Assembly (NCBI GenBank): GCA_946622645.1
Contig: CAMOQF010000014.1
Location: 1-32,448 of the forward strand
Length of the DNA: 32,448 nucleotides
Source of the DNA: an uncultured Blautia sp.
GTDB lineage: Bacteria > Bacillota > Clostridia > Lachnospirales > Lachnospiraceae
Reading direction: 5' to 3'
The notes under the pieces were generated by a model. That model saw only the letters and a list, made by a program, of their open reading frames with translations. It made no database searches and was not told where the DNA came from. This document shows positions 1,779-23,754 of this stretch, in pieces. Positions within the stretch are counted from its first letter, which is position 1. Every line of letters begins with the position of its first letter. The translations under genes were made by a program, and so were the position numbers.

Positions 1779-1820
1779 AAAACAAGCAGGGACCTGGCGC
1801 CCTGCTTGTTTTTATTTTTT
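1779..1820. terminator. bidirectional terminator between convergent genes
   Basis: A 13-bp stem (1779-1791 with 1800-1812, 8-base loop) runs into a T-rich tract on the plus strand (to 1820). On the minus strand it ends in TTTT and starts right at the stop codon of the permease-kinase gene. It serves the FN3 gene from the left and the signalling operon from the right. Confidence 0.85.
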
Positions 1821-4800: not shown

Positions 4801-5135
4801 GCCCAGATAATGGCTATGTAGGTCACGATCATAAACCAGGCGCTGACAAAGCCATGGTCATAGCCAAATGAATGCTTGGTATATGTATAGACGCCGCCGC
4901 TGTCAGGATAGCGGTTCATCAGGAAATGATAGTTGGCCCCCAGGACCAGCATGGCCAGGCTGCCAAGTGCCAGTCCGATTGCCGAGCCGACAGGGCCCGC
5001 GATCGGAAGAAATGTACTTCCGGGCATGACAAAAGAACCCCAGCCGACACTGCAGCCAAAAGCAAGTGCCCATGCGCCAAGCCCGGACAGGCAGCGGAGA
5101 TCTTTGTTTTCTGTTGGACCAGATGTATGTCTCAT
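1812..5135 (-). CDS. APC-family amino acid permease fused to hybrid histidine kinase with two receiver domains
   Basis: A 1107-residue membrane protein. Residues about 12-495 form an APC-superfamily permease with about 12 hydrophobic segments; the first has the family's GxGxxxGSG-like turn (GCSVGWGSF). A short polar loop (about 496-538) and one more membrane segment (539-563) lead into a cytoplasmic kinase: DHp with H-box SNMSHEIRTP (His595), then HATPase with N-box NILGNSVKF (Asn713), DTGIG (746-750), F-box FDAFSQED and GGSGLGM. Two receivers follow: one at about 832-955 (acidic DDD 838-840, phospho-Asp887, Lys938) and one at about 978-1100 (Asp1032, Lys1086). All key residues are present. 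Known transporter-kinases such as CbrA use an SSS-family symporter; here it is APC. It is the last gene of the phosphorelay operon, 40 bases after the Hpt gene. Sensing an amino acid or amine through the permease is inference. The start ATG has AAGGGA about 11 bases upstream. Confidence 0.93.
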   Translation of the reverse strand: MRHTSGPTENKDLRCLSGLGAWALAFGCSVGWGSFVMPGSTFLPIAGPVGSAIGLALGSLAMLVLGANYHFLMNRYPDSGGVYTYTKHSFGYDHGFVSAWFMIVTYIAIIWANATALPLIARTLLGSTFQFGFDYEVAGFHVYMGEILLAISSLVLAAIICLRRKKAYAAQIMMAILLFAGIVICFVAAFGTEGGGTDAFSPAYAPGTTSYGGILTIFALAPWAFVGFESISHSAADAKFSLKKSFRILTVSVIIAAAAYIFLNLLAVMALPEGVSSWPEYIANLGKYTGVASQPTFFAAFTALGNKGSVILGVAAVCGIFTGLIGNYIALSRLLSNMSEDGLLPGWIGKKNRNGEPSNAILGILAVSVLLPFFGRTAISWIVDVTTVGATIAYAFASAAALRTARKENNRRFVVTGIAGTVISFLFALLFLVPNIIAVTTLSTESYLILAAWSILGFAVFYRILRHDREHRFSRSIVAWVVLLALIIFTSSVWLRQTTDHAIDRTVEPILAHYEEEPSGTEAPSEEFLTETLDGISDSMLLGVVIQVTLIVGALIILLEINARMQKRERQTEIEKALAEESSRAKTSFLSNMSHEIRTPMNAIIGLDNIALRDPNLPPRTREHLEKIGASAHHLLGLINDILDMSRIESGRMVLKNEEFSLREFLDQINIIINGQCQDKGLRYECNIIGHVDDYYYGDDLKLKQVLINILGNSVKFTDAPGEVSLTVEMREKNKDSCTMCFVMKDTGIGMDPEYIPKIFDAFSQEDATSTNRYGGSGLGMAITKNFVEMMNGEIQVESAKGVGSVFTVIVTLKTSERTAHEEHQITLPADLRVLIVDDDEISAEHTGVVLEVFGIKADTSSDAHEALQRIQYAQEMGQNYHLIVTDYKMPGMDGLELSSRIREITGEKTAILLLTGYNWDIIDEEAEKAGIDSILGKPLFSDTFIKKIHEVLQKRAGTELPGITKEEEIEADSVLAGCHVLMAEDVEQNAEILLDLLELEDVTAEHAKNGEEAVRMFNESSPGHFDAILMDVRMPVMDGLSATKAIRALDHPDAESIPIIAMTANVFDEDVERSHEAGMNAHLSKPVEPDRLYSTMARLISEHRKK

Positions 5136-5175: not shown

Positions 5176-5544
5176 TCAGCCTTCTGCGTAACGGGCGATC
5201 CAGGCCGAAGTATGACTGCAGAGATCCGCAGTCTGCCGAAGCAGATCCTTCACTTCGTCATCCGTCTTTCTGCGGGTGTTGCCCGGGCGGAATTCCTCCG
5301 TGATCTGATCCGCCAGAGCGGCGATCCTGACAAGGCCCAGGTTTCCACAGATGCCTTTTAACGCATGGGCTGCTTCGAACAGTCCCTGTGCGTCCATGGT
5401 CTCTCCTGCTTTTATGAGTGAATCCGCAACGCCGTTGGTCGGGAATTTGCGGATATGCTTGTCGATCAGCTTTTCGATCCGCAGCACGCGGATGGCCTGA
5501 TCATAGTCGCCTTCGATTTCCTGGTAAAGTTCTTGAAGTGTCAA
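5176..5544 (-). CDS. Hpt (histidine phosphotransfer) protein
   Basis: A 122-residue, all-helical, soluble protein with the Hpt signature AAHALKGICGNLG; the phospho-accepting His is residue 60 and HxxKG is intact. Such domains shuttle phosphate between receivers of hybrid kinases and output receivers. It starts with TTG four bases after the stop of the REC-GGDEF-EAL gene. The AGAGG site lies inside the end of that gene at about 8 bases spacing, and no in-frame ATG exists before residue 50. As a free-standing Hpt between three receiver-bearing proteins, it is the obvious relay hub of this operon, probably passing phosphate from the kinase receivers to Asp62 of the EAL protein. Confidence 0.92.
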   Translation of the reverse strand: MTLQELYQEIEGDYDQAIRVLRIEKLIDKHIRKFPTNGVADSLIKAGETMDAQGLFEAAHALKGICGNLGLVRIAALADQITEEFRPGNTRRKTDDEVKDLLRQTADLCSHTSAWIARYAEG

Positions 5545-5548
5545 TTCT

Positions 5549-7243
5549 TTAACCTCTTTCTAACATAATCTCCTTCTGGATCAGTTTTTCAAAATCATCT
5601 GCCGAGACCGGTCTGGAAAAATAGAAGCCCTGCACCAGATCGCAGTCTGCATTTTTGAGAAGCGCCAGCTGCCCTTGTGTCTCTACGCCTTCGGCAACCA
5701 CACGCAGCTTTAAGTGTCTTGCAATGTCCAGGATCAGGTTGACGAGACGCATGTCTGTATCGTTCTTTTCGATGTTCTGGACAAATTTAGTGTCCATCTT
5801 GAGCACATCGACCGGCATGGTCGACAGTGTGTTGAGGGACGAATATCCTGAGCCGAAGTCGTCCATCTCGATCTCAAACCCGGCGTCCTGGAGTCCGCGG
5901 ATCGTTTCGACCGCCTGTTTTGCATTGTCAATATAGGCCGACTCGGTGATCTCCAGCTTAAAATCTTCGAACGACAGTCCGTTGTTCTGCATCAAGGAGA
6001 CCAGCCGCCTGGTGAGCGTCGGATCAAACAGGTCCGCCCGGGAAACATTGACCGATACAGGAAGCGTGAACTGGTATTTTTCACGCCAGCGCCGGATCTG
6101 CTTTGCGGCATTTTCCCAGACAAAGCTGTCGATCACGCTGATCAGGCCGTTGCTTTCGAAGAGCGGAATGAAATCTCCGGGAATGATCATTCCCATCTCC
6201 GGATGTTTCCAGCGGATCAGGGCTTCGGCGCTTGCGAGGCGCGGGGGATCACATCGGATATCGTATTTGGGTTGATAAAAGACCTGGAACTGATGCTCCT
6301 CCACGCCGCCGCGAAGATCATTCAAGAGACGTCTGGATATGAGTTCGCGTTTATGCAGGTCATCGTTGTAGAACATCAAAGGATTCTTATAATCGCCGCG
6401 TGCCATGTTGCAGGCTACCCGTGCCTGGTCGAAGGCTACGATAGGTTCCACGCCTTCTTTCCGGAGATTTACGCCCATGCGCAGATGGATGCGTACCTTT
6501 GCGGAGATATTGCTGACTTTGTCCTGAAGACGTTCGAGAAGAGCCTTGTAGTCGGGCTGCCGGATACAGTAGATCTGGAACTGATCGCCTTCGGACCGGT
6601 TGCCGATGCCGTCGGTCTCTGAGAGGAAAGACAGGATCTCGGTACCGATGGTCTTCAGGACTTCATCGCCGAAATCACGTCCGTTGACGGCGTTAATGGA
6701 GTGAAACTGTTCAATATTCACGACGACCGCATCCATGTGCATGTCCGGATGATACAGAAACAGACGTTTTGCGTATTCGTAAAAGAAGTTTCGGGAGTAC
6801 AGTCCGGTCAGCTGGTCATGCTCGGCTGCGTTGATAAGCTGCCTGCCCTCGCTCAGCTCAATGATCCGGCTTACGCGGGCCAGGATGACCTCCGTGATGT
6901 CGAACGGTTTGGTGATAAAATCTGCGGCTCCCATCTGCAGCGCCTGCAGCTCTGCGCTCTTTTCGGCCGTCAGGACGATGATCGGGATCGTATTCAGAAA
7001 CTCGTCCGCGCGTGCCTGTTCCATGACTTCAAAACCGTTCATAACGGGCATGAAGATGTCCAGGAGGACGAGGGAAAGGTCCAGGGCATACTTCCGCATG
7101 ATCTCGAGCGCTTCCTGCCCGTTTTCAGCGTAAAGGAGATCGTAATCGTCTTCCAGGATCACGCCGAGAGCGTCCCGGTTGATCTCCTGATCATCCACTA
7201 TGAGGATGAGCTGTCTGCGATTGATTCGTTTAGATCTGATCAT
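5549..7243 (-). CDS. response regulator with receiver, degenerate GGDEF and EAL (c-di-GMP phosphodiesterase) domains
   Basis: A 564-residue cytoplasmic regulator. The receiver (about 12-130) has acidic DD 17-18, phospho-Asp62 and Lys112. The GGDEF-like domain (about 140-290) carries EGDQF (218-222) where GGDEF is expected, so cyclase activity is unlikely. The EAL domain (about 303-560) looks catalytically complete: EAL at 340-342, Asn399 in SVNVSR, Glu431 in LEITES, Asp461-Asp462 in DDFGSGYSS, Lys482, Glu518 in VAEGVET, and QGFYFSRP near the end. The predicted reaction is c-di-GMP to pGpG. The degenerate GGDEF may bind GTP or serve as a linker. The start overlaps the upstream kinase stop by 4 bases (ATGA), so the two are translationally coupled. 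Phosphorylation at Asp62 by the relay presumably sets phosphodiesterase activity; the sign of that effect cannot be read from sequence. Confidence 0.94.
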   Translation of the reverse strand: MIRSKRINRRQLILIVDDQEINRDALGVILEDDYDLLYAENGQEALEIMRKYALDLSLVLLDIFMPVMNGFEVMEQARADEFLNTIPIIVLTAEKSAELQALQMGAADFITKPFDITEVILARVSRIIELSEGRQLINAAEHDQLTGLYSRNFFYEYAKRLFLYHPDMHMDAVVVNIEQFHSINAVNGRDFGDEVLKTIGTEILSFLSETDGIGNRSEGDQFQIYCIRQPDYKALLERLQDKVSNISAKVRIHLRMGVNLRKEGVEPIVAFDQARVACNMARGDYKNPLMFYNDDLHKRELISRRLLNDLRGGVEEHQFQVFYQPKYDIRCDPPRLASAEALIRWKHPEMGMIIPGDFIPLFESNGLISVIDSFVWENAAKQIRRWREKYQFTLPVSVNVSRADLFDPTLTRRLVSLMQNNGLSFEDFKLEITESAYIDNAKQAVETIRGLQDAGFEIEMDDFGSGYSSLNTLSTMPVDVLKMDTKFVQNIEKNDTDMRLVNLILDIARHLKLRVVAEGVETQGQLALLKNADCDLVQGFYFSRPVSADDFEKLIQKEIMLERG

Positions 7244-8733
7244 ACCGGTTCATCCCCTTTCTTTCTTTGGAATATATATTTTTTCAACGTACTGTAGAGC
7301 GAATCCACATCGGCCGGCTTTGCAAGATGCGCGTTCATGCCGGCTTCCAGAGATTTCCGTACATCGCCTTCAGACGCGTTGGCGGAAAGGGCGATGATCG
7401 GGATCGATCTTGCGTCGGGACGTTCGAGAGCACGGATCCGCATGGTGGTTTCAATGCCGTCCATGACAGGCATCCGTATGTCCATCAGTACAGCGTCGTA
7501 ATAGTCGGGTTCGGTGTTCGAAAACATGTCCAGGCCGATCTTTCCGTTTTCAGCGTGGTCGGTCTCGACGCCTTCCAGCTCCAGCAGATCCATGACGATC
7601 TCCGCGTTTTCAGGGCGGTCTTCCACGATCAGGACCCGGCAGCCTTCCAGAGAAAACTCCGCTGTTTCCGGATCGATGGATGCCGGACTTTCATCGGAGA
7701 GGGGAAGCGGGATCGTGACCGTAAATACGGTTCCTTTGTTTTTTTCGCTCTCCACCGTGATGGAACCATCCATGAGCTCGATCATGCGTCTGCCGGATGC
7801 AAGGCTGACGCCGAGCCCGCTGTAGCGGGTCGTCGAACTGGCATCCTCCTGCGAAAACGCGTCAAAGATATGCGGAAGGAATTCGGCATCGATGCCTACG
7901 CCCGTATCTTCTATCCGGAAGCGGAATGTGCGGAGCTTTTCGTCCTCCGAGATATATTCGCAGATAAAACGGACCGTCCCGGGCGTATCGGTGTATTTTA
8001 CGGCATTGTCAAGGATGCCGAGAAGCAGCTGTTTCAGCTGGACGCGGTCTCCGGTTACATAGACCTTTGCCTCGTCCGGCATGGAATACTCGTAACGAAG
8101 GCCTTTTGCGTCACACAGGGACTGGATCAGGACATTGATCTCGTCCAGGATGCCGGAGAAAAAAAACACTTCATTTTTCAGGGTTTTGGAGCCGGTCTCG
8201 ATGCTGTTCAGCTCCAGGATATTGTTGATCAGGTCCAGAAGGTGCCGTGCGCTTAGCTGCTGTTTCTGCAGGCAGGTCCTGATCTCCGGAGAAAGGGATG
8301 GATCCTTGATGGCTTTTTCACCATAGCCAAGGATCACATTCATAGGCGTTCTCATCTCGTGGCTCACGCTGGCCATAAAGGCGGTCTTCGCGTTGGTGGC
8401 CTGTTCAGCTGCCAGCAGCTGGGCTTTCATCTCTTCGCCTTTGACGATCTCGGTCGTAATGTTGCGAAGCATGAAGTACATGATGCAGACAAAGATGCTC
8501 CCGCCGAACAGAATGCCTGTCATGACCAGGTCCGGATTGCCCAGAAAGCCTACGAACAGATAGCCGGCCAGGAAAAAAATGAGCAATGCGATCGGAATAT
8601 TAAGGATCGTATTGCGTCCCGCCCAGAATTTGCGCCCTTTGATATATCTGGCATAGCGGATAAAAGAAACAATATTAAAGACCATGAGCACGCTTCCGAG
8701 ACAAATGAGCAGTCGGATCAGCCATCCTATCAT
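7240..8733 (-). CDS. membrane hybrid sensor histidine kinase (HK-REC)
   Basis: First gene of the phosphorelay operon, 497 residues from the ATG at 8733. An in-frame GTG at 8739 abuts the AGGAGG site, whereas the ATG sits 6 bases from it and is preferred. Three membrane segments (about 1-25, 42-65, 69-89) with short loops form the only sensor, so there is no large extracellular domain. DHp has SHEMRTP with His125. HATPase has the N-box ILDNAVKY, DTGVGI and FDAFSQED; the G2 box is slightly eroded (YSGLG). The C-terminal receiver (about 364-482) has phospho-Asp418 and Lys472. Expected flow is His125 to Asp418 to the Hpt protein. The kinase core resembles that of the permease-kinase downstream, suggesting duplication with exchange of the sensor part. 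Confidence 0.93.
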   Translation of the reverse strand: MIGWLIRLLICLGSVLMVFNIVSFIRYARYIKGRKFWAGRNTILNIPIALLIFFLAGYLFVGFLGNPDLVMTGILFGGSIFVCIMYFMLRNITTEIVKGEEMKAQLLAAEQATNAKTAFMASVSHEMRTPMNVILGYGEKAIKDPSLSPEIRTCLQKQQLSARHLLDLINNILELNSIETGSKTLKNEVFFFSGILDEINVLIQSLCDAKGLRYEYSMPDEAKVYVTGDRVQLKQLLLGILDNAVKYTDTPGTVRFICEYISEDEKLRTFRFRIEDTGVGIDAEFLPHIFDAFSQEDASSTTRYSGLGVSLASGRRMIELMDGSITVESEKNKGTVFTVTIPLPLSDESPASIDPETAEFSLEGCRVLIVEDRPENAEIVMDLLELEGVETDHAENGKIGLDMFSNTEPDYYDAVLMDIRMPVMDGIETTMRIRALERPDARSIPIIALSANASEGDVRKSLEAGMNAHLAKPADVDSLYSTLKKYIFQRKKGDEPV

Positions 8734-8765
8734 AGGCACCCTCCTTTAAAGCATTTTCCATAATC

Positions 8766-8864: not shown

Positions 8865-8889
8865 CTTTAGTTGATAGGAGTGGGTGTAC

Positions 8890-10641
8890 ATGATCAAGAA
8901 GAAATTCAGACAAATGCTTTTGACGCAGATCCTTTCCGCGATGACGGTAACGATCTGCATGATGATAGACAGTATCATGATCGGACGGTTTCTGGGGGTC
9001 TATTCGATGACCGCCTACGGGCTTGCGACGCCGATCCTTCTGGTGTTTGCCGCCCTCGGAGCCATGATCTCGGCCGGCATCCAGGTGGTCTGCGGAAAAA
9101 CCATGGGAAGCGGTGATCAGGAATCCGCCATCTCCTGCTATTCTACATCCATCGTGGCTGCCCTCGGGATCGCGCTTCTGGCTCTGGTGCTGATCTTTAC
9201 GGTTCCCAACCAGATCTGTATGATCCTGGGTACTGGCAGTCCCTCTCCGACCAACCAGGTGTTCCATCTGACCAAAAACTATCTGACGGGCTTTATCATA
9301 GGTGCGCCTGCTTTTATCTTTGCACAGATCATGGTACCTTTTGTCCAGATCGCCGGGGAACAGAAACGTCTGATCCTCGCTGTCGGGATCATGACCGTTT
9401 CTGACATCATTCTGGATCTTCTCAGCGTATTTGTATTTAAGGGCGGAATGCTCGGCATGGGCCTCGCCTCCAGTATCAGCTATTATGCGGCTGTCGCCAT
9501 AGGGCTTTCCTACTTTTTCAGCAAAAAATGCCTGTTCAAATTCCGGTTCAAGAGTATCCATCGAAAGACCATCGTGCAGATGCTGAAAAACGGCGTGCCT
9601 ACGGTCATCAATCAGCTGAGCCTGGTTCTTCTCGTCTATGTTTTCAACCACATCCTGCTGAATGTGAACGGAAAGCTTGCAGTAGCGGCCTATTCAGTGA
9701 TCACGACCGTCTCAAACCTCTGCTATTCCTTCGGCTCCGGCGTAGCGGCGGTCGCCCTGACCCTCTCCTCTGTTTTTTTTGGGGATGAAGACCGCACCTC
9801 GTTGTTGTCCCTGATGCGGATCATGACGCTGTACGCCATTATACTGGACGTGATCGTCACCATTGCCGTACAGTTCGCGTCTCCTGTCATGGTGGGGCTT
9901 TTCCTCACCCGTCAGGACGCACGAAGCATGGCCGTCACAGGGCTCCGCCTGTTCGCGCTCTGCCTGGTGCCATGTTCCTTGAACACCTCACTCAAAAACT
10001 ATTATCAGGGAACCGGGCGGACGCCTCTCACGGAGCTGATCTCTGTCCTGCAGAATTTTGCTTTCCCGGCGCTCTCCGGTTTTCTTCTGAGCCGTGTGAT
10101 CGGCACCACCGGGGTATGGATGGCTTTCTTTTTCGGAGAGACCCTCGCCCTGCTTGTCATCTGCTGTATTGTCTGGAAAAAGAACGGGCATGTCACGTTT
10201 ACCGCGGAAGCTTTTGCCATGCTCCATTCTGATATCGGTGTACCTGCCAAAGACTGCTTTGAAGTCACTGTCCGCACCCGTGAGGAGGTCACATCCGCCT
10301 CCATCGCCATCGGAGAGTTCTGCAAAGCCCATCATGAGGATGAAAGGATCAGTTATAACGTGTCCCTCTGCGTGGAGGAGATGGCCTTCAACATCATAGA
10401 ACACGGTTTTGGCATGGACGATCTGGATCACAGCATCGATATCCGTTATATGGTCAAGAATGAAAAGAGGACTCTGCGCATCCGTGACGACTGCAAAGGA
10501 TTTGATCCCATCGCCTATAACGATCTGCATAAATCGGATGATCAGACGGCCCATTTCGGGATCCGAATGGCTTTTTCCAAGGCCAAGGATACCATGTATA
10601 TCAGTTCTCTGGGACTTAACAATCTGACGATCGTTTTCTGA
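8890..10641 (+). CDS. MATE-family transporter fused to RsbW-like HATPase domain
   Basis: A 583-residue protein. Residues 1-432 are a MATE-type transporter: about 12 hydrophobic segments in two related halves, with family-like stretches such as DSIMIGRFLG near the start and NYYQGTGR near residue 370. Residues about 456-583 are an anti-sigma-factor-type ATPase domain (HATPase_c_2): N-box CVEEMAFNIIEHGF with Asn501, G1 box RDDCKGFDP (532-540), and HFGIRMA (555-561). It has no DHp or phosphorylatable His-box, so it is not a two-component kinase. RsbW/SpoIIAB relatives phosphorylate anti-anti-sigma partners or bind sigma factors; no such partner is in the window. I start at ATG 8890 because AGGAG (8876-8880) is 9 bases away; the GTG at 8884 is only 3 bases away. 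Substrate and target are unknown. A sensing transporter that controls the ATPase domain is inference. Confidence 0.88.
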   Translation: MIKKKFRQMLLTQILSAMTVTICMMIDSIMIGRFLGVYSMTAYGLATPILLVFAALGAMISAGIQVVCGKTMGSGDQESAISCYSTSIVAALGIALLALVLIFTVPNQICMILGTGSPSPTNQVFHLTKNYLTGFIIGAPAFIFAQIMVPFVQIAGEQKRLILAVGIMTVSDIILDLLSVFVFKGGMLGMGLASSISYYAAVAIGLSYFFSKKCLFKFRFKSIHRKTIVQMLKNGVPTVINQLSLVLLVYVFNHILLNVNGKLAVAAYSVITTVSNLCYSFGSGVAAVALTLSSVFFGDEDRTSLLSLMRIMTLYAIILDVIVTIAVQFASPVMVGLFLTRQDARSMAVTGLRLFALCLVPCSLNTSLKNYYQGTGRTPLTELISVLQNFAFPALSGFLLSRVIGTTGVWMAFFFGETLALLVICCIVWKKNGHVTFTAEAFAMLHSDIGVPAKDCFEVTVRTREEVTSASIAIGEFCKAHHEDERISYNVSLCVEEMAFNIIEHGFGMDDLDHSIDIRYMVKNEKRTLRIRDDCKGFDPIAYNDLHKSDDQTAHFGIRMAFSKAKDTMYISSLGLNNLTIVF

Positions 10642-14911: not shown

Positions 14912-15724
14912 TTAATCTACGAAGGGGATAACGGCTCCGTCATAGGTCTCGTTGATGAAGTTCACGATCTCATCGGACTTCAGCACTTCTACCAGCGCCT
15001 GGATCTTGGGAAGTTCTTCGTTGCCTTCATAGACGGCGATGACGTTCACATAGGTCTTGGCAGCTTCGGAATCGCTCTCTTCATGAGCCAGGGAATCTTT
15101 TCCTACGGAGAAGCCTGCTTCCAGCGCATAGTTGCCGTTCAGGACGACATAGGAGGTCTCGTCCACGACACGGGCGACCTGCTCTGCAGCCAGCTCTACG
15201 ATCTCGATGTCATAGTTGTATGCTTCGATATCGTTGACGGTTGCTTCCAGGCCTACGCCCTCTTTCAGGGTGATAATGCCGTTGTCCTGCAGCAGAAGAA
15301 GGGCTCTTGCTTCATTGGTGGTGTCGTTCGGAACAGCGATGGTGTCGCCGTCAGCGATGTCATCCAGGCTGGACTTGGTTCCCGGATAGATTCCGAACGG
15401 CTCATAGTGGATGCCGCCTGCGTTGACAAGGTGGGTTCCTTTCTCCTCGTTAAAGCTGTTCAGATAGGGGATATGCTGGAAATAGTTCGCGTCAAACTCG
15501 CCGCTCTCTACCACTTCGTTCGGCTGTACATAATCGTCAAACACTGTCACTTCCAGAGTGTAGCCCTTCTCTTCCAGAAGCGGAGCTGCCTTCTCGAGGA
15601 TCTCGGAATGGGGTGTTGCAGAAGCTGCCACTGTGATGGTGGTGTCTTCTTCTGCCATCGCAAAGGATCCGATCGTGCCGATGGCCAGAACGCTGATCAG
15701 GGCTGCTGCTGTGATTTTCTTCAT
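14912..15724 (-). CDS. metQ: methionine ABC transporter substrate-binding protein (NlpA/MetQ family)
   Basis: A 270-residue NlpA-family binding protein: TITVAASATPHSEILE at the mature N-terminus, then DANYFQHIPYLN and VPNDTTNEARALLLLQ, all characteristic. It delivers D/L-methionine to MetNI. The N-terminus (about 24 residues) is a signal peptide ending FAMA before EED, a signal peptidase I type site. There is no Cys and so no lipobox, unusual for MetQ, which is normally a lipoprotein. It is the third gene of metNIQ, after an 86-base spacer with two hairpins. The ATG has AGGAGG at good spacing. With no lipid anchor it may remain uncleaved through the N-terminal helix, or be released. Confidence 0.93.
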   Translation of the reverse strand: MKKITAAALISVLAIGTIGSFAMAEEDTTITVAASATPHSEILEKAAPLLEEKGYTLEVTVFDDYVQPNEVVESGEFDANYFQHIPYLNSFNEEKGTHLVNAGGIHYEPFGIYPGTKSSLDDIADGDTIAVPNDTTNEARALLLLQDNGIITLKEGVGLEATVNDIEAYNYDIEIVELAAEQVARVVDETSYVVLNGNYALEAGFSVGKDSLAHEESDSEAAKTYVNVIAVYEGNEELPKIQALVEVLKSDEIVNFINETYDGAVIPFVD

Positions 15725-15761
15725 AATAAGTTCCTCCTCTTGTAAAAAATTATGTATGCGA

Positions 15762-15802
15762 AGAAGGCTTTACGCCCCTTCTGAACAGCAGATGCTGCTG
15801 TT
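15762..15802 (-). promoter_or_regulatory. two intercistronic hairpins between metI and metQ
   Basis: Hairpin one pairs 15784-15790 with 15796-15802 (7 bp, 5-base loop). Hairpin two pairs 15762-15767 with 15777-15782 (6 bp, 9-base loop). A run of six T follows about 6-10 bases on in the transcript. They may stabilise the metQ mRNA or partly attenuate read-through. Confidence 0.45.
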
Positions 15803-15810
15803 TTCATGGA

Positions 15811-16638
15811 TCAGCGCAGGAACATCGTCCTGATAAACTGGATGATCCCGACGCCTGCCGCGGCGCCCATGATCACCGAAAAAACAATGAAAAAGATCAG
15901 GGAGCCTGCTTTTAAGGTGGTTGATTTTCTGCGGTCAAAATGGTTGGCAAAGAACATCCCGTAGGTCTGGAAGATCTGGAACAGGATGATCAGGAGCGCC
16001 ACCGTAACGAACATCACGTCATAGATGTAACGGTTGTAGCCGTACCGTACCGCGATATCGCCAAGGCCGCCGCCGCCCACCGTACCGGCCATGGCCGAAT
16101 AGCCAAGGATGGTGCCCATTGCGATCGTCGCGTTTACAATGAGCGATGTCCTTCCTTCCACCAGAAGGACTCTGGTGATGATCTGCATGTTGCTTGCTCC
16201 CATGGAACGGGCTGCCTCGATGACGCCGGCGTCCACCTCTGTCAGGGACGATTCCACCATACGGGCGATAAAAGGGATCGCCGCGATGGAAAGCGGGACG
16301 ATGACGGCCGTCGTACCGTAGCTTTTTCCGACCAGGGCTCTGGTAAACGGGATGAGCAGGATCAGAAGGATCAGGAACGGGATGCTTCGCACGATGTTGG
16401 CGATCACATCCAGGACCTTGTAGACCAGCGCGTTCGGCTTTAAGCCGTCTTTTCTGGTCACTGTAAGAAGGACGCCCATGGGCAGGCCGAACAGGTAGCC
16501 GATGATGGTGGAGACCATGGTCATATAGATGGTTCCCCAGATGCCTTCCACCAGCATTTTTCCGTAGGTGTCGATCCATTCACTGACGTTGGCCGGAGCT
16601 GCCGCTGCAGCGATGAGTCCGATAAGATCAATGTGCAT
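15811..16638 (-). CDS. metI: methionine ABC transporter permease
   Basis: A 275-residue inner-membrane permease of the MetI family. The family EAA loop, which docks on the ATPase, is seen as EAARSMGASNMQIITRVLL (about residues 142-160). GYSAMAGTVGGGGLGDIAVRYGY is the characteristic region following it. About six hydrophobic segments are seen; the C-terminal part (about 225-275) is longer than in E. coli MetI and adds a membrane segment. The start overlaps the metN stop by 11 bases and has GGAGG at 9 bases. It works with MetN and MetQ in methionine uptake. Confidence 0.95.
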   Translation of the reverse strand: MHIDLIGLIAAAAAPANVSEWIDTYGKMLVEGIWGTIYMTMVSTIIGYLFGLPMGVLLTVTRKDGLKPNALVYKVLDVIANIVRSIPFLILLILLIPFTRALVGKSYGTTAVIVPLSIAAIPFIARMVESSLTEVDAGVIEAARSMGASNMQIITRVLLVEGRTSLIVNATIAMGTILGYSAMAGTVGGGGLGDIAVRYGYNRYIYDVMFVTVALLIILFQIFQTYGMFFANHFDRRKSTTLKAGSLIFFIVFSVIMGAAAGVGIIQFIRTMFLR

Positions 16639-17662
16639 ATTCCGGCGCCTCCTCCACTGCCAGTCCGCACTCCTTCAGGTAGTGCTTCATGGCTTCTTTT
16701 CTTTGACTGTATTCCATAAACTGAAGGATCATCTCGCCCTTTGCCACGCCTCCCACATTGCGGGTGTTGGCCCGAAGAATGTTGACCGGCTCCTGGAAGG
16801 TGAGGATCAGGTTCGCGATCACGGGCTCAAAGGCCGAATTCTCCGAAAAGACGATACGGATGATGTCGCCGCCCTGGATCTCGGACATCAGGGCTGCTTT
16901 TTCGGTCTCCGGATCGGTCAGGATGTCCTTCCGGATCAGTTCACGGGCTACTTCGGTCTTCGGATGAGAAAAGATGTCCGAAACCAGGCCTTCTTCGATC
17001 ACGACGCCTTCCTTGAGGATGGCCACGTGCCTGCAGACCTCGCGCACCACCGACATCTGGTGGGTGATGATCACGATGGTGATGCCGAAATCACGGTTGA
17101 TATTGCCAAGAAGCTCCAGGATGGAGGAAGTCGTCTGGGGATCCAGCGCGCTGGTGGCTTCGTCACAGAGGAGGATCTGCGGATCAGAGGCGAGCGCCCT
17201 TGCGATCGCCACTCTTTGCATCTGTCCTCCGGAAAGCTGGGCCGGAAAAGCCTTCTGTTTGTCGTACAGACCTACGATCTCCAGAAGTTCTGCCGCTTTT
17301 TTGCGGGCTTCCTGTTTGCTCTTGCCCTGGATGTACAGGGGAAAACAGACGTTTTCCAGCACGGATTTCTGCATCAGCAGATTGAAATGCTGGAAGATCA
17401 TGCCGATATTCTTGCGCTGAGCCCTCAATTCGCTCTCTGAATAGCTGCCCAGCTCGTGCCCGTCGATCAGGACCTCGCCCTGGGAAGGCACCTCCAGATA
17501 ATTGATGCAGCGTACCAGAGTGCTCTTTCCGGCCCCGGACATTCCGATGATGCCGTATATATCGCCGGATGAGATCTCAATGCTTACGTCCTTCAGCGCT
17601 TCCACGGTCCCGTCCGCAGACTGAAAAGTCTTGCTCAGATGTCTTATGGATATTTCTGACAT
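16628..17662 (-). CDS. metN: methionine ABC transporter ATP-binding protein
   Basis: A 344-residue ABC ATPase with Walker A GMSGAGKST (about 39-47), signature LSGGQMQRVAIARA, Walker B ILLCDEATSALDP and the H-loop IVIITHQ. Residues about 260-340 form the C-terminal NIL domain that binds methionine in the cytoplasm and inhibits transport in MetN homologues (trans-inhibition). First gene of metNIQ. It has an extended -10 promoter about 75 bases upstream and an AAAGGA site. The leader shows no SAM (S-box) or T-box architecture, so regulation by methionine would have to act through the NIL domain or a protein repressor. Confidence 0.95.
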   Translation of the reverse strand: MSEISIRHLSKTFQSADGTVEALKDVSIEISSGDIYGIIGMSGAGKSTLVRCINYLEVPSQGEVLIDGHELGSYSESELRAQRKNIGMIFQHFNLLMQKSVLENVCFPLYIQGKSKQEARKKAAELLEIVGLYDKQKAFPAQLSGGQMQRVAIARALASDPQILLCDEATSALDPQTTSSILELLGNINRDFGITIVIITHQMSVVREVCRHVAILKEGVVIEEGLVSDIFSHPKTEVARELIRKDILTDPETEKAALMSEIQGGDIIRIVFSENSAFEPVIANLILTFQEPVNILRANTRNVGGVAKGEMILQFMEYSQRKEAMKHYLKECGLAVEEAPEYAH

Positions 17663-17787: not shown

Positions 17788-17816
17788 TTGCCTTTCCAAC
17801 TGCCATTTAGTATAAT
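17788..17816 (+). promoter_or_regulatory. sigma-A promoter of the binding protein / HD-GYP operon
   Basis: TTGCCT (17788-17793), 17-base spacer, TATAAT (17811-17816), about 41 bases before the start codon. An ATGGC...GCCAT inverted repeat (17777-17781 and 17802-17806) flanks the -35 and could be an operator, but it is short. Confidence 0.8.
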
Positions 17817-17857: not shown

Positions 17858-18796
17858 ATGAAAATGAGGCATATATCGCGCGCAGGAATCCCGTTTCTTC
17901 TCGGCTTTCTGTCTGTCTTTCTGTTTTCCTGCCCCGCAGGAGCGGAGGATGAGGAAGTCTTCATCGTAGAAAACGAGTGGAACTTTGTAGATGATTCCCT
18001 CGATATCACGAACGGCATACCGGAAGATGCCGTGGGACGCCTTCTGGCCATCCAGGAATCCGGCAGGCTCACAGTAGCCACAGAGCCTTACTATGCACCG
18101 CAGGAATTTATAGATCCTTCCCTCTCCGGGCAGGAAAGCTATGTCGGCGCCGACATGGAGCTGGCCCGGCTGATCGCGAAGCGGATGGGCGTCGAGCTGG
18201 AGATCGTTCCTCTCGAGTTTGACGATGTTCTGGCTTCTGTCGCCAGAGGTCAATATGACCTTGCCATCTCGGGTCTTGCCTTTACGCCGTCCAGAGCCCA
18301 GAACCTGGAATTCTCCAAAGGCTATCATTACGGCGACTCAGACAGCGCCACCGACGGCCTTCTGATCCGTGAAAAGGATGTTGACAAGATCAGATCTCCC
18401 GAGGACCTGAAGAACAGGACCATCGTAGCGCAGAGCCTTTCGCTGCAGGAGAGCCTTGCCGTGGATAACCTGCCCTACTATCATGAGTTCCGCCGTCTTA
18501 CCTCCATCCTGGATATCTATCAGGCCGTTGAAAATGAATCAGCGGACGCGGCACTCGTGAACATCGAGAACGCGCAGGTCTATATCGATAACAATCCCGA
18601 TTGCGGTCTGATGCTTGCTCCGGGCCTCACCTTCTCCCTGGATGAGCAGTATACCGGCGACCGGATCGCCGCTCCCAAGGGAGAGACCATGCTGATCGGT
18701 TTTGTGAACGGAGTGATCGATGAAGTGATGGAATCCGGTCAGTATGAGAAATGGTTTGAAGAATATGCCGATCGTGCCGGCGAGCTTCGCTTATAA
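17858..18796 (+). CDS. family 3 extracellular solute-binding protein
   Basis: A 312-residue exported protein. Residues 1-29 are a signal sequence; FLFSC could be a poor lipobox (Phe at -2), or cleavage could follow AGA. After a 40-residue acidic linker, residues about 68-305 are an SBP_bac_3 domain: GRLTVATEPYYAPQEF, YVGADMELARLIAKRMGVELEIVP, YDLAISGLAFTPSRAQNLEFSKGYH. This fold binds amino acids and is also widely used as a sensor domain. It is followed 36 bases later by the ECF-S/propeller/HD-GYP receptor and no amino-acid ABC permease or ATPase is nearby. I infer that it presents a ligand, probably an amino acid, to the receptor rather than feeding a transporter. Confidence 0.9.
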   Translation: MKMRHISRAGIPFLLGFLSVFLFSCPAGAEDEEVFIVENEWNFVDDSLDITNGIPEDAVGRLLAIQESGRLTVATEPYYAPQEFIDPSLSGQESYVGADMELARLIAKRMGVELEIVPLEFDDVLASVARGQYDLAISGLAFTPSRAQNLEFSKGYHYGDSDSATDGLLIREKDVDKIRSPEDLKNRTIVAQSLSLQESLAVDNLPYYHEFRRLTSILDIYQAVENESADAALVNIENAQVYIDNNPDCGLMLAPGLTFSLDEQYTGDRIAAPKGETMLIGFVNGVIDEVMESGQYEKWFEEYADRAGELRL

Positions 18797-18832
18797 TGTT
18801 ACACCTGCCTGGCAGAACGGGAGGGAATCAAA

Positions 18833-21800
18833 TTGAAAAACTGGAAAATAATTCAGATCATGATCTTTACAGCCGTGTGTATTCTGCTGAACCTCGGAGG
18901 AAGGTCTCTGACCACCCATTATAATCTGATGTTCTGGCTGGATTCTGTAGGCACGGTTCTCTGCTCTTATGTGGGCGGTCCCATCTGCGGCGCCATAGTC
19001 GGCGTTACCAGCAACCTGATCTACAGTATGGTGTATCATTCCTCTTATATCTATGCGCTGGTCAGCCTGATCCTCGCGCTGATCGTCGGCTTTGCAGCCA
19101 AAAAAGGAATGTTCAACACCCTCTTCGGGACCATGTCCGTCAGTGCCGTTTCAGCTATTGCCTGTCTGGTGGTCTCCGTTCCTCTAAACATTGTCTTTTT
19201 TGACGGATATACGGGGAACATATGGGGGAACGGCGTCCTGAATTATCTGGCGGAAAGAGGCTGGCCTCTTATCCTCTGCCAGATCATCGGGGCTTTTTAC
19301 CTGGAATTCCTGGACAAGTTTATAACGCTTCTCCTTCTTTATATCCTGTTAAAGATCATCCGCCTCGTCCTGCAGAAGATCAGGGCCGTAAGAGCCCAGC
19401 ATTTTTCAAAGCATATGGACGACGTCCTTCAGATCGTTCCGCTTCTGCTGTTTTTTTCTCTTTCTGCTTTCCTGTCTTCTGAAAAAACATATGCGGAAGA
19501 GATCGAAAATGTCATCGACTATGACGATTATGTCCAGACCGTGTTCAGCAGCAGCAACGGCCTGCCCTGCGGCGAAGCCAACGATATCGAGCAGACCAAC
19601 GACGGTATCCTGTGGATCGGTACCTACGCCGGACTGTACCGATACAACGGTTCGGAATTCCGCTGGATGGACAATTACGAGTCCGTCCGCAACGTCAACT
19701 GCCTGTATGTGGACGAAGAGGGCCGTCTGTGGATCGGCACCAACGACAACGGCCTGTCCATCTCCATCAACGAAAAGATATCCAACGTCCTGGACGAAGC
19801 CAACGGGCTCCCTTCCAACTCGGTCCGTTCCATCATCCAGGGCTCCGACGGATATTATTATGTCGGCACAACGGGCAGTATGCAGATCCTGGCGTTAAAT
19901 GACGGTCTGAAAAAGATCGCGACGCTCCGGGAGATCGTCTATGCGGACAAGATCGCCGCGGACAACAACGGCCACGTCGCCGCCATCACGTCCGACGGAC
20001 GGCTGTTTCTTCTGAAAAACGGACAGATCAAAAGCTCCCTGCGCATTTTCGGCAACGATATCTTCAACAGCTGCTGCTTTGATCCCGAGGGGTATCTGCT
20101 TGCAGGCACCTCTTCCAACATCATATACCGGTACGACGTTTCCGAAGACGGCTTTAACGGGATCGATTCCATCCAGTGCAGCGGCCTGATGAATCTGAAC
20201 GATCTTTACTATCTGGAAAACGGTGAAATGTTCGTAGCTGCCGACAACGGCATCGGTTACGTGGACACAAAAAGGCAGTTCCATCTCATCAATGTCAACA
20301 CTTTTAACAACTCTATCGACAATGTTCTGATGGATTATCAGAACAACCTGTGGTTTACGTCTTCGCGGCTGGGACTTCTGCGGCTGGCGCAGTCCCCCTT
20401 CAAAGACGTCTACTCCACCGTCGGAATGGAAAGCCGTGTGGTCAATTCCGTCGCCAGATGGGAGGGCTGTTACTTCTTCGGCACCGACAAAGGCCTGGAT
20501 ATCGTCGATGAAACGTGCCGGCGGCAGATCACGAATGACCTGACCAGACAGCTGAACGGCGTAAGGATCCGCTGCATCATGACCGACAGCCACGGCAGCA
20601 TCTGGTTATGCACTTACGGAAGCGGACTTCTCGAGATCGAAGAAGACGGGACCCAGCATTTATACAATGCCGACAACGGAAGTTTCGGAAACCGGGCCAG
20701 GATGACCACCGAGCTCTCGGACGGCACGATCCTGGCAGCCGGCGATACGGGCATCAGCTTTATCGAGGATCACAGGGTCACAGATACCATCAGCTATGCG
20801 GACGGCCTGATCAATTCCATGATCCTGACTGTCACGGAGATGTCGGACGGAACCATCCTGGCAGGCACGGACGGCGACGGGATCGCAGTGATCAGAGACC
20901 ATCAGGTAGAACGCATGCTGACCCGGGAAGACGGCCTGAGTTCCGGCGTCATCCTGCGGTCCGTAAAGGACCCAGACGGCAGCGGGATTTTTCTGATCAC
21001 CAGCAACGGCCTGTGCTACATGGAAACCGATTACTCCATCCGCACTCTGGATAACTTCCCCTACTTCAACAACTATGATATCTGGGCGAAGGACAATCAT
21101 ACACTGTTTGTGCTCAGCAGCGCCGGCATCTATGTCGTCAACCGGGATGACCTTGTCAACGACGTGGAAAACATGTCCTGTGATCTTCTCGATTCCAGAA
21201 GGGGCCTGAACAGTGCTTTGACCGCCAATTCATGGAACTACGCGGATGACCAGGGAGATCTTTTCCTCTCCTGCGACAAAGGCGTCTACATCATGGATAC
21301 CGAGCGTTACGCTCTTACCACACGTTCGTACCGCATCAACCTGACCCTGGCCAAGCTGGACAATGTCCCCAGAACCATCGAGCAGGACCGGATCATCTCC
21401 ATCAATCACGGTGCCAACAAGCTGGAGCTTTTCCCGGAGATCATCAACTATACCATCCAGGATCCCAACACGGGCTACTATCTGGAAGGGGTCGACAAAG
21501 ACTGGACGATCATGCCGCAGAGCAACTTTTCCAGCATTGTCTACACCAACATTCCGAGCGGTGAGTATACATTGCACCTTGCCGTATTTGACAATAACCG
21601 GGAAAATATCCTGGAGGAGCGTCTCTTCCGGGTCATCAAGGAAAAAGAGATCTATGACGAAAGCTGGTTTATCTTCTACATCATTGTTGTAGCGATGCTG
21701 TTTATCGCCTGGATCCCCTGGTTCTTTATGCAGAGAGCCCTCGCAAACGCCCAGAAGAAGATCCAGCTCGGCAACGAGACCATCATCGCCATCGCCAACG

Positions 21801-22507
21801 CGGTGGACGCCAAAGATACCAGCACCAGTCAGCATTCCTATCGTGTGTCAGTCTATTCCGCACAGATCGCACAGCGGATGGGCTTCAGTAAAAAACAATG
21901 TGAAAACATCCGGAAGGCGGCCCGTATGCATGATATCGGCAAGATCGGCATACCTGACAGAGTCCTGAACAAGCCGGGACGCCTGACGGATGAAGAATAT
22001 GCCATCATGAAATCCCACGTGACCCGCGGAAGCGAGATCCTGGGCAGTTTCACCCTGATCGACCATGTGGTGGAGGGCGCGCGCTTCCATCACGAACGGT
22101 ATGACGGCAAGGGCTATCCGGAAGGGCTGAAGGGCGAAGAGATCCCGCTTTACGGCCGGATCATCGGCGTGGCGGACGCTTTCGATGCCATGACCGCCAA
22201 TCGCATCTACCGTAAGAAGCTCGATTTTGAATATGTACTGGGAGAGTTGAGACGAGGCCGCGGCACGCAGTTCGATCCGGAGTGTGTGGATATCCTGCTG
22301 CAGCTGATCGAGGACGGGGATATCGATATCAAAGCCATGTACCCTGACCTTCCGCCGGAAGAGATCACCGAGGAAGCCATCGAGGAGAAGATCCTGGAGC
22401 AGCCCGCGGAGAAACCCGGAGACAATACCCAGGATAAGCCTCAGGACACACCTCAGGACAAGACCCAGGATAAGCCTCAGGACGATCCTCAGGCGAAGAA
22501 AGAATAG
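18833..22507 (+). CDS. ECF-S-like membrane domain / beta-propeller / Y_Y_Y / HD-GYP c-di-GMP phosphodiesterase receptor
   Basis: A 1224-residue receptor. Start is TTG 18833, 6-7 bases after GGGAGGG; the first in-frame ATG is 27 bases further. Residues 1-187 hold about five to six membrane segments resembling an ECF transporter S component (GGPICGAIVGVTSNLIY and similar). A further hydrophobic segment (about 199-216) leads to an extracellular propeller (about 235-840) of Reg_prop repeats such as DGILWIGTYAGLYRY, EGRLWIGTNDNGL and HGSIWLCTYGSGL. A Y_Y_Y-type domain (about 850-935: YYLEGVDKDW, YTNIPSGEYTLHL) and a membrane helix (945-967) follow. The cytoplasmic HD-GYP domain (about 978-1150) is complete: His1001, His1033-Asp1034, Lys1037, His1062, HHE 1086-1088, GYP 1094-1096 and Asp1115. 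Predicted activity is c-di-GMP hydrolysis to pGpG/GMP. The tail is a PQD/TQDK repeat. The operon position between two binding proteins suggests ligand-regulated signalling (inference). Confidence 0.9.
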   Translation: MKNWKIIQIMIFTAVCILLNLGGRSLTTHYNLMFWLDSVGTVLCSYVGGPICGAIVGVTSNLIYSMVYHSSYIYALVSLILALIVGFAAKKGMFNTLFGTMSVSAVSAIACLVVSVPLNIVFFDGYTGNIWGNGVLNYLAERGWPLILCQIIGAFYLEFLDKFITLLLLYILLKIIRLVLQKIRAVRAQHFSKHMDDVLQIVPLLLFFSLSAFLSSEKTYAEEIENVIDYDDYVQTVFSSSNGLPCGEANDIEQTNDGILWIGTYAGLYRYNGSEFRWMDNYESVRNVNCLYVDEEGRLWIGTNDNGLSISINEKISNVLDEANGLPSNSVRSIIQGSDGYYYVGTTGSMQILALNDGLKKIATLREIVYADKIAADNNGHVAAITSDGRLFLLKNGQIKSSLRIFGNDIFNSCCFDPEGYLLAGTSSNIIYRYDVSEDGFNGIDSIQCSGLMNLNDLYYLENGEMFVAADNGIGYVDTKRQFHLINVNTFNNSIDNVLMDYQNNLWFTSSRLGLLRLAQSPFKDVYSTVGMESRVVNSVARWEGCYFFGTDKGLDIVDETCRRQITNDLTRQLNGVRIRCIMTDSHGSIWLCTYGSGLLEIEEDGTQHLYNADNGSFGNRARMTTELSDGTILAAGDTGISFIEDHRVTDTISYADGLINSMILTVTEMSDGTILAGTDGDGIAVIRDHQVERMLTREDGLSSGVILRSVKDPDGSGIFLITSNGLCYMETDYSIRTLDNFPYFNNYDIWAKDNHTLFVLSSAGIYVVNRDDLVNDVENMSCDLLDSRRGLNSALTANSWNYADDQGDLFLSCDKGVYIMDTERYALTTRSYRINLTLAKLDNVPRTIEQDRIISINHGANKLELFPEIINYTIQDPNTGYYLEGVDKDWTIMPQSNFSSIVYTNIPSGEYTLHLAVFDNNRENILEERLFRVIKEKEIYDESWFIFYIIVVAMLFIAWIPWFFMQRALANAQKKIQLGNETIIAIANAVDAKDTSTSQHSYRVSVYSAQIAQRMGFSKKQCENIRKAARMHDIGKIGIPDRVLNKPGRLTDEEYAIMKSHVTRGSEILGSFTLIDHVVEGARFHHERYDGKGYPEGLKGEEIPLYGRIIGVADAFDAMTANRIYRKKLDFEYVLGELRRGRGTQFDPECVDILLQLIEDGDIDIKAMYPDLPPEEITEEAIEEKILEQPAEKPGDNTQDKPQDTPQDKTQDKPQDDPQAKKE
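22424..22494. repeat. imperfect 36-bp tandem repeat in the receptor's C-terminal tail
   Basis: The 18-mer caggataagcctcaggac is found at 22430-22447 and 22466-22483, a 36-base period, with shorter CTCAGGAC copies between. It encodes a hydrophilic TQDKPQD-type tail after the HD-GYP domain. Copy number may vary between strains. Confidence 0.75.
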
Positions 22508-22520
22508 GAGGTAAGCAAGA

Positions 22521-23711
22521 ATGAGAAGAGTCTATCTGGCCACTCTTTTGTCCGCCCTTCTGGTCTTTCTGATCTACGGAACCATCTATTCCTTTGGAAA
22601 CAAGACCAGGAATGTGGGCGTTCTGAAAGTCGGCTTTATCTATGAAAATGACGAGATCACGCCTTACACCTACAATTTTTCGCTGGGCGCCAAGGCACTC
22701 GAACGGGAATATCCCGGCAAAGTCGAGGTCATGACCCGAAGCAACGTTCTTGACGAAAAGACAGAGGAACCTCTGCGCGAACTGATCCACAGCGGCTGCA
22801 GCATCATCTTTACGGACAGTTACACGGACGCCCTGTATAAGCTGGCTCCGGAGTTTCCGGATGTGCAGTTCTGCCAGGCCTCCAGCGAGCCCCTGGATTT
22901 TTCACAGCTCCCTGAGAACTATCACACTTTCAAGGGCAGGATCGTGGAAGGCCGGTATGTGAGCGGCATCGCCGCCGGAATGAAGCTGAACGAGATGATC
23001 GCCAACCATGTGATCGACGCCGAGGATGCATTGGTGGGCTTTGTAGCCGCCCATCCCATCCCGGAAGTCATATCCAGTTATACGGCTTTCCTGCTGGGCG
23101 TCCGCTCTGTATGCCCCACTGCTGTCATGAATGTACGTTACACCTACACTTGGGGAAACTTCAGTCTGGAAAAGAACACAACTAAAACGCTGATCGACGA
23201 AGGCTGCCAGATCATCGGACAATACTGCGACACAGTCGGGCCTGCCCTCGCCTGCGAAGAAGCCAGCCACACCCTCCCCGTATATCACGTAGGCTACAAC
23301 AAGAGCATGATCGACGTGGCTCCGTCCTCGTCGCTGATCAGCACGTGTGTCAACTGGACCCCCTATATCGTCGAGGCGACGGAGGCGGTCATGAACAACA
23401 GAGTGATCGAGGAATATGTGGAAGGCGATGTGAACGGTAATGACATGTGCGCCGGTTTTGAACGGGACTGGGTAGAAATACTGGAGCCCAACAGACTGAC
23501 CATCGCGCGCGGAACCCAGGACGCCATGGATACGGCCATCGAAGCCTTCAAAAAAGGAAAGATCAATATCTACAAAGGAGACTATACGGGCGTCAATCCC
23601 AACGATGGGAGCGATACCATCGATCTGAGGAACGGATATAATGAGAATTTAACGTTCTCCTCTCCCTCCTTCCACTATGTTCTGCGGGATATCATCCATA
23701 TAGAAAACTGA
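22521..23711 (+). CDS. BMP-family (PnrA-like) substrate-binding protein, membrane-anchored
   Basis: A 396-residue protein of the basic membrane protein/PnrA family. Family stretches are LKVGFIYENDEITPYTYNF, CSIIFTDSYTDALYKLAPEFPDVQFCQ, FKGRIVEGRYVSGIAAGM and GCQIIGQYCDTVGPALACEE. Known members bind purine nucleosides. The N-terminus (residues 5-24) is a single hydrophobic helix without Cys or a clear cleavage site, so it is probably a membrane anchor, unlike the usual lipoprotein. It starts 13 bases after the HD-GYP receptor with an AGGAGG site and ends the operon; no nucleoside permease or ATPase follows. I infer that it is a second ligand-binding partner of the receptor. The ligand is unproven. 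Confidence 0.9.
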   Translation: MRRVYLATLLSALLVFLIYGTIYSFGNKTRNVGVLKVGFIYENDEITPYTYNFSLGAKALEREYPGKVEVMTRSNVLDEKTEEPLRELIHSGCSIIFTDSYTDALYKLAPEFPDVQFCQASSEPLDFSQLPENYHTFKGRIVEGRYVSGIAAGMKLNEMIANHVIDAEDALVGFVAAHPIPEVISSYTAFLLGVRSVCPTAVMNVRYTYTWGNFSLEKNTTKTLIDEGCQIIGQYCDTVGPALACEEASHTLPVYHVGYNKSMIDVAPSSSLISTCVNWTPYIVEATEAVMNNRVIEEYVEGDVNGNDMCAGFERDWVEILEPNRLTIARGTQDAMDTAIEAFKKGKINIYKGDYTGVNPNDGSDTIDLRNGYNENLTFSSPSFHYVLRDIIHIEN

Positions 23712-23721
23712 AAATGTCAAC

Positions 23722-23754
23722 AAAAAAAGCAGGGGACGGTTCCTCTGCTTTTTT
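23722..23754. terminator. bidirectional terminator between BMP gene and atpC
   Basis: An A-run, a GCAGGGGA/TCCTCTGC stem with one G-T pair, a short loop and a T-run form a near-symmetric hairpin (23722-23754). It has a T-rich exit on both strands and lies between the convergent BMP operon and the ATP synthase operon. Confidence 0.9.

Follow-up and report, generated by a model that had tools for sequence, protein, structure and literature searches.

We analysed a window of 32,448 nucleotides, one complete contig (CAMOQF010000014.1) of the 2.5-Mb draft genome of an uncultured Blautia sp. (Lachnospiraceae), and found that it carries a putative sensing unit in which a BMP/PnrA-like binding protein is encoded directly next to a large membrane receptor with a predicted cyclic di-GMP (c-di-GMP) phosphodiesterase domain. 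We consider it somewhat probable that the two form a one-component extracellular sensing unit, in which a BMP protein specific for purine bases and the receptor would together act on c-di-GMP breakdown, an SBP_bac_3 protein providing a second input in some lineages. The unit consists of three plus-strand genes in a row (all features below lie on this strand unless stated otherwise): the gene for the SBP_bac_3 protein, an optional partner (312 aa, 17858..18796), that for the receptor (1224 aa, TTG start, 18833..22507), and that for the BMP protein, the constant partner (396 aa, 22521..23711; PF02608, 7e-26). The gaps of 36 and 13 bases and the terminator after the third gene (hairpin with A and T flanks and a T run, 23723..23754; -18.6 kcal/mol, z -6.16, equalled by 0 of 200 shuffles) agree with what had been reported for this locus in the initial annotation, as does the absence of any ATP-binding cassette (ABC) gene or energy-coupling factor (ECF) transport gene (EcfA/EcfT) from the operon, according to the open reading frame list and a profile scan.

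The linkage between receptor and BMP is constant in the genomes that we compared. Orthologous loci were taken as the best 80 of 436 relatives, a sample dominated by one Lachnospiraceae clade in which more distant receptors are under-sampled. The BMP gene lies directly 3' of the receptor gene in all 77 loci with room for it, the other three contigs stopping 0-2 bases past the receptor, and 62 of these 77 gene pairs share exactly 4 bases, which points to coupled translation (the pair in the window is instead separated by the gap of 13 bases). In 22 further loci, BMP was found next to five of five receptors combining ECF-S, propeller and HD domains, but next to none of eight propeller-HD receptors lacking ECF-S and none of nine other propeller proteins, two of which have little downstream sequence; a profile search revealed no additional BMP. 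Five ECF-S/HD paralogues without propeller (two in the same genome, whose contigs hold no Bmp match, and three in other loci) have no adjoining BMP either, at least two of the five sitting close to the end of the available sequence. The BMP gene accompanies the ECF-S plus propeller architecture. The SBP_bac_3 gene, for its part, is found 5' of the receptor in only 21 of the 76 loci with room and in two of the five further receptors with ECF-S, propeller and HD domains, and we therefore dropped the trio as an invariant unit. Of the two binding proteins that had been proposed to report to one receptor, and whose co-occurrence was to be looked for across Clostridia genomes, the BMP stands as a constant neighbour; receptors lacking their binding protein, which had been named as an outcome that would speak against the proposal, are found in most loci of this one-clade-dominated sample for SBP_bac_3 and in none with room for BMP.

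The receptor carries an ECF-S domain (residues 10-177, 18860..19363), a transmembrane (TM) segment, a Reg_prop propeller region predicted to be extracellular (residues 224-881, limits approximate, 19502..21475; PF07494, 4.1e-22), a Y_Y_Y domain (residues 882-925, 21476..21607; PF07495, 5.9e-9), a second TM segment, and a C-terminal HD-GYP domain, the predicted c-di-GMP phosphodiesterase (residues 988-1150, 21794..22282; PF13487, 2e-38); the hydrophobic segments at residues 198-216 and 946-964 bracket the propeller region. Residues H1001, HD1033-1034, H1062, HH1086-1087, GYP1094-1096 and D1115 are kept in all 80 aligned receptors, which upholds the HD-GYP assignment made earlier; they are taken here to represent the HD and GYP motifs and the metal ligands. 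Judging from these residues the domain probably breaks down c-di-GMP, and it is the only output found: a Pfam scan assigns it to HD_5 and gives no match to HisKA or HATPase and no GGDEF-EAL. The genome encodes 24 GGDEF matches (23 above the cutoff), so that a c-di-GMP network exists on which such a receptor could act. At the other end of the protein, structure prediction and fold search attribute a six-helix S-component fold to residues 5-177. The likeness was supplied by the fold search, a sequence profile of this region having no match among solved structures at E up to 10, and the receptor scores 79 bits with the ECF_S_CD3073 model (NF045596), under its curated cutoff of 180.

The BMP protein matches the PF02608 profile with 91.3 bits (gathering score 24.1), and its nearest solved relatives, by sequence as well as by predicted structure, are AtzT, solved with guanine bound, and 3s99, in which adenine is modelled. 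Y49 and W211 are conserved and align to Tyr45 and Trp194, the aromatic sandwich of AtzT (the numbering offset being deduced), and the hydrogen-bonding Glu of the purine pocket is also kept. The protein thus looks built to bind a purine base, adenine- or guanine-like, which narrows the nucleoside specificity first suggested for it. Unlike the usual encoding of PnrA-type proteins, no ABC transporter gene accompanies it in its operon. Its N-terminus has a hydrophobic peak at residues 4-22, followed by neither a lipobox nor an A-x-A pattern, and the AlphaFold2 (AF2) model predicts a hydrophobic helix at residues 2-26 (22524..22598), a possible uncleaved anchor. Calls of this kind are pattern matches, made over 60 residues in both the family and a comparison set, and not those of a trained signal predictor. 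Among receptor-linked BMPs, a lipobox occurs anywhere in the 60 residues in 12 of 78 and after the hydrophobic core in 7 of 78, and 69 of 78 have neither a lipobox nor an A-x-A pattern after the core. In the 27 closest BMPs that do not belong to the family (35-42% identity, from other genomes; those whose loci were retrieved, out of more than 100 matches) the lipobox pattern is always present, and a P-loop gene lies alongside 25 of them, the two remaining loci stopping at the gene or 278 bases past it. The missing cleavage patterns make membrane anchoring possible, and according to the model the BMP protein may be held at the membrane by its uncleaved N-terminal helix.

The SBP_bac_3 protein is probably secreted via a cleaved signal peptide, as 14 of 22 aligned proteins (window included) have an A-x-A pattern past the hydrophobic core and two of 22 a lipobox pattern. 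Arg146 and Asp230, which we take to be the amino-acid-binding pair, are kept in 22 of 22, and most of the nearest solved structures bind amino acids, although the top matches also include cyclohexadienyl dehydratases and reconstructed ancestors. Ahead of the Pfam domain (residues 71-303) lies a conserved N-terminal tail, N-x-W-N-x-V..S.D...GIP..A.G (17957..18037), a candidate docking segment in which N39, V44, D49, I54, P55 and G60 are present in all 22 proteins. On a tree of 93 receptors (a quick build with long branches and a midpoint root, from which, as from the receptor alignment, the interrupted receptor of locus L115 was excluded), SBP_bac_3 presence requires 7 changes, versus 21.4 in shuffles. 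No member of a 54-row Lachnospiraceae/Butyrivibrio clade has the gene, which is common in the deeper lineages: 24 of the 29 rows outside that clade with upstream sequence carry it. Relocation of the gene in genomes lacking it at the locus was considered and rejected: in all 11 searched genomes of the 54-row clade there is no orthologue elsewhere, the best match being at E 3.4e-18 or weaker (25-32% identity), versus 1.9e-108 or better (59-61% identity) in five of five SBP-bearing control genomes. This distribution is best explained by an early gain and later losses, a tentative reading in view of the midpoint root, the long branches and the deepest ECF-S row, L157, which has no SBP_bac_3 gene.

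Put together, these features suggest the following mechanism. The core would consist of the receptor and the BMP protein, the latter probably held at the membrane, where it would bind a free purine base outside the cell; its ligand-dependent closure would alter its contact with the receptor, probably at the ECF-S bundle and/or the propeller, and the signal would travel by way of the Y_Y_Y domain and TM segment 946-964 to the cytoplasmic HD-GYP domain and alter c-di-GMP hydrolysis. In SBP-bearing lineages, including the one of the window, the secreted amino-acid-binding protein would add a second input. A candidate site of BMP contact is the loop GYTGNIWGNGV (residues 125-135, 19205..19237), which follows the helix at residues 97-123 and conforms to the consensus GxTGNxWG[DN]G. 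G125, N129 and W131 are present in 37 of 37 BMP-linked receptors and the loop is missing in five of five BMP-free ECF-S/HD-GYP paralogues, though D-x-x-G[TS] is common to both; this restriction may also reflect shared ancestry. We place the loop outside the cell because, in the window's receptor, Lys and Arg abound in the loops at residues 89-94 and past residue 180. That the S-component module reads the purine-base-binding protein through this outside loop and, with the secreted SBP_bac_3 protein, makes c-di-GMP breakdown depend on two nutrient signals at once is a more tentative and rather doubtful extension; if true, it would define a new receptor class assembled from three transport families.

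The evidence can also be read in other ways. The propeller itself might be the true sensor, as in oligosaccharide-binding hybrid two-component systems, with BMP and SBP_bac_3 as modulators or structural subunits. The Reg_prop plus Y_Y_Y architecture is in line with this, and the BMP-free receptors without ECF-S indicate that a propeller-HD core can exist without BMP; yet a BMP gene is present wherever ECF-S and propeller co-occur with contig left, and the preserved purine-contact residues argue for ligand binding by the BMP protein, and we regard this explanation as unlikely. Improbable in our view is also that both binding proteins are ordinary scavengers for ABC transporters encoded elsewhere and are co-transcribed with the receptor through shared conditions. 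Orphan binding proteins serving distant ABC systems exist, which counts for this possibility, and the genome has further BMP and SBP genes as well as a BMP-type ABC operon that could accept the BMP protein: the BMP of locus L219 (36% identity) precedes ATPase and permease genes. Such scavenging would, however, hardly predict the 4-base overlaps, the joint loss of lipobox and A-x-A pattern in the receptor-linked family, shared by 0 of the 27 nearest relatives, or the lack of an adjoining BMP in all eight propeller-HD receptors without ECF-S. Least probable is a transporter-sensor in which BMP passes its ligand to the ECF-S module, using a shared EcfAAT, while HD-GYP reports flux: the ECF-S fold is supported and one EcfT-type (CbiQ family) gene lies elsewhere in the genome, but the operon has no EcfA/EcfT, the module is fused to a 1000-residue receptor, and to our knowledge known S components take their substrate without any binding protein, which counts against it.

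Several observations weigh against the proposed purine-sensing unit itself. In the receptor-linked BMP family, AtzT Ser97 is mostly replaced by Gly and Asn218 mostly by His. Both ABC-type BMPs of the same genome (L218, L219) are likewise without lipobox, so that its loss is not special to the receptor-linked BMP in this genome, a point that also favours the scavenger explanation. Few purine genes adjoin the unit (one adenosine-deaminase-like in L156, one PurF-like in L157), with no purine family matched by at least two of 58 downstream neighbours, and searches of nine sources gave no RNA regulator near the unit. The correlation of receptor and BMP distances (r 0.954 over 74 rows, leaving out L115 and three cut BMP rows) is what would be expected of any co-inherited pair, and in the 19 rows with all three genes it is 0.909 for SBP_bac_3 and receptor and 0.891 for BMP and receptor; for a tight linkage within one clade, shared descent and co-expression may suffice.

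The composition of the unit was compared with described systems. In Vibrio cholerae and Sinorhizobium meliloti, the extracytoplasmic binding protein NspS governs the membrane c-di-GMP enzyme MbaA, which has GGDEF and EAL domains, in response to polyamines (PMC8967002, PMC9993111). Common to both is a binding protein gene beside a membrane c-di-GMP enzyme, with no transporter of its own; unlike MbaA, the receptor here has HD-GYP only and no GGDEF-EAL. NspS-MbaA is not known to include ECF-S or a propeller, and its binding protein belongs to another family; of the described systems it is the closest in logic. The closest use of a BMP-type protein may be Med of Bacillus subtilis, which is said to be a BMP protein and acts with KinD, reportedly a histidine kinase without HD-GYP, ECF-S or propeller. 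AtzT, which shares the aromatic sandwich, is thought to serve uptake (PMC6834077), unlike the BMP protein described here, which is encoded with a receptor and is possibly anchored. The nearest ligand-output pair would be that of the dCache_1PU sensors, membrane receptors described as sensing purine through their own dCache domain and feeding c-di-GMP turnover, where we propose a separate binding protein (PMC11245519). Hybrid two-component systems share the propeller and Y_Y_Y before a membrane helix, but here the output is HD-GYP and an ECF-S module is added. Those systems end in a histidine kinase and a DNA-binding regulator. The ECF S components RibU, ThiT and FolT share the predicted fold of residues 5-177, but here the module is fused to a receptor with no EcfA/EcfT alongside. 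A literature search, judged mostly from search results and with subscription literature largely outside it, found no description of this receptor/BMP/SBP composition. The composition may be new, and the initial annotation likewise knew of no such system, but the principle of a binding protein steering a c-di-GMP enzyme is known from NspS-MbaA (PMC8967002).

The unit is patchily distributed. Draft-genome labels, which may be wrong, assign its nearest named orthologues to Blautia, Lachnospiraceae and uncultured Clostridiales, and the receptor-BMP pair also occurs in isolates including Butyrivibrio sp. NC2007 and XPD2006 and Lachnospiraceae MC2017 and NK4A144. Among 37 genomes of the same genus, many of them incomplete drafts, 8 have full or partial orthologues; in the class, 3 of 391 genomes, its own counted, have an ECF-S-bearing receptor accompanied by BMP. 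The genome of locus L051 (G462) holds a second full SBP-receptor-BMP operon (L227, 2330-8198), and in L115 (8001-11723) the receptor is broken into three open frames while the reading frame of the following BMP is open, by decay or assembly error. A conserved third partner was sought among 57 of 65 downstream and 66 of 70 upstream genes, plus one downstream gene of L156, and rejected, the commonest family, GGDEF, matching only 7 of 66 upstream and 4 of 58 downstream neighbours; these were chosen by longest open frame and some may be spurious. ABC_tran is matched by 3 of 66 upstream neighbours, although single transport genes may escape a tally of the 25 commonest families. The adenosine-deaminase-like gene of L156 (9160-10113) overlaps the BMP stop by 4 bases and offers a lead to the purine ligand.

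Related domains were seen in other arrangements. On contig C33 of the same genome (L221, 4651-7596, minus strand) we found an SBP_bac_3-GGDEF-EAL fusion of 982 aa, from which it follows that the SBP_bac_3 family can be part of the same polypeptide as a c-di-GMP enzyme. Several of 16 genomes have frames of about 540-710 aa with Bmp matches; examples are L224 (1133-3067, 645 aa), with no evident signal peptide and an internal Bmp domain, and L225 (1532-3466, 644 aa), also with no evident signal peptide. An 809-aa protein in L223 (433-2859) looks secreted and has a C-terminal Bmp domain after an unassigned N-terminal part of 480 residues. A fusion of BMP to a signalling output was considered and rejected, as two long BMP proteins showed no domain other than Bmp at E 1e-4.

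Upstream of the SBP_bac_3 gene, a promoter-like site TTGCCT-17-TATAAT (17788..17816, 10 of 12 matches) lies 41 bases 5' of its start; the frequency of such sites in the region is little above chance. A divergent MetNIQ-type methionine ABC transporter with its own binding protein precedes the trio (14912-17662, minus strand), and neither NlpA nor NIL figures in the 25 commonest families of the 66 upstream neighbours of receptor loci. Downstream, F-type ATP synthase (atp) genes converge on the terminator hairpin, whose A and T flanks perhaps allow bidirectional use. Farther upstream the window encodes a 1107-aa protein (1812-5135, minus strand) that joins an amino acid permease to histidine kinase and receiver domains, beside an Hpt protein (5176-5544), a REC-GGDEF-EAL protein (5549-7243) and a hybrid kinase (7240-8739), which may be another transporter-derived sensor feeding c-di-GMP, and a MATE-type transporter fused to HATPase_c_2 (8884-10641, plus strand, 585 aa), with coding-like third-position G+C.

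Most c-di-GMP receptors have no assigned ligand, as has been stated for a Vibrio species (PMC8967002). Here a likely sensory partner is encoded beside the enzyme and makes the purine bases a class of ligand that can be tested. The unit would show transport proteins as sensors twice, in a binding protein without transporter and in a transporter subunit as receptor domain, and suggests that transport proteins converted to sensors inform the cell of free nutrients.
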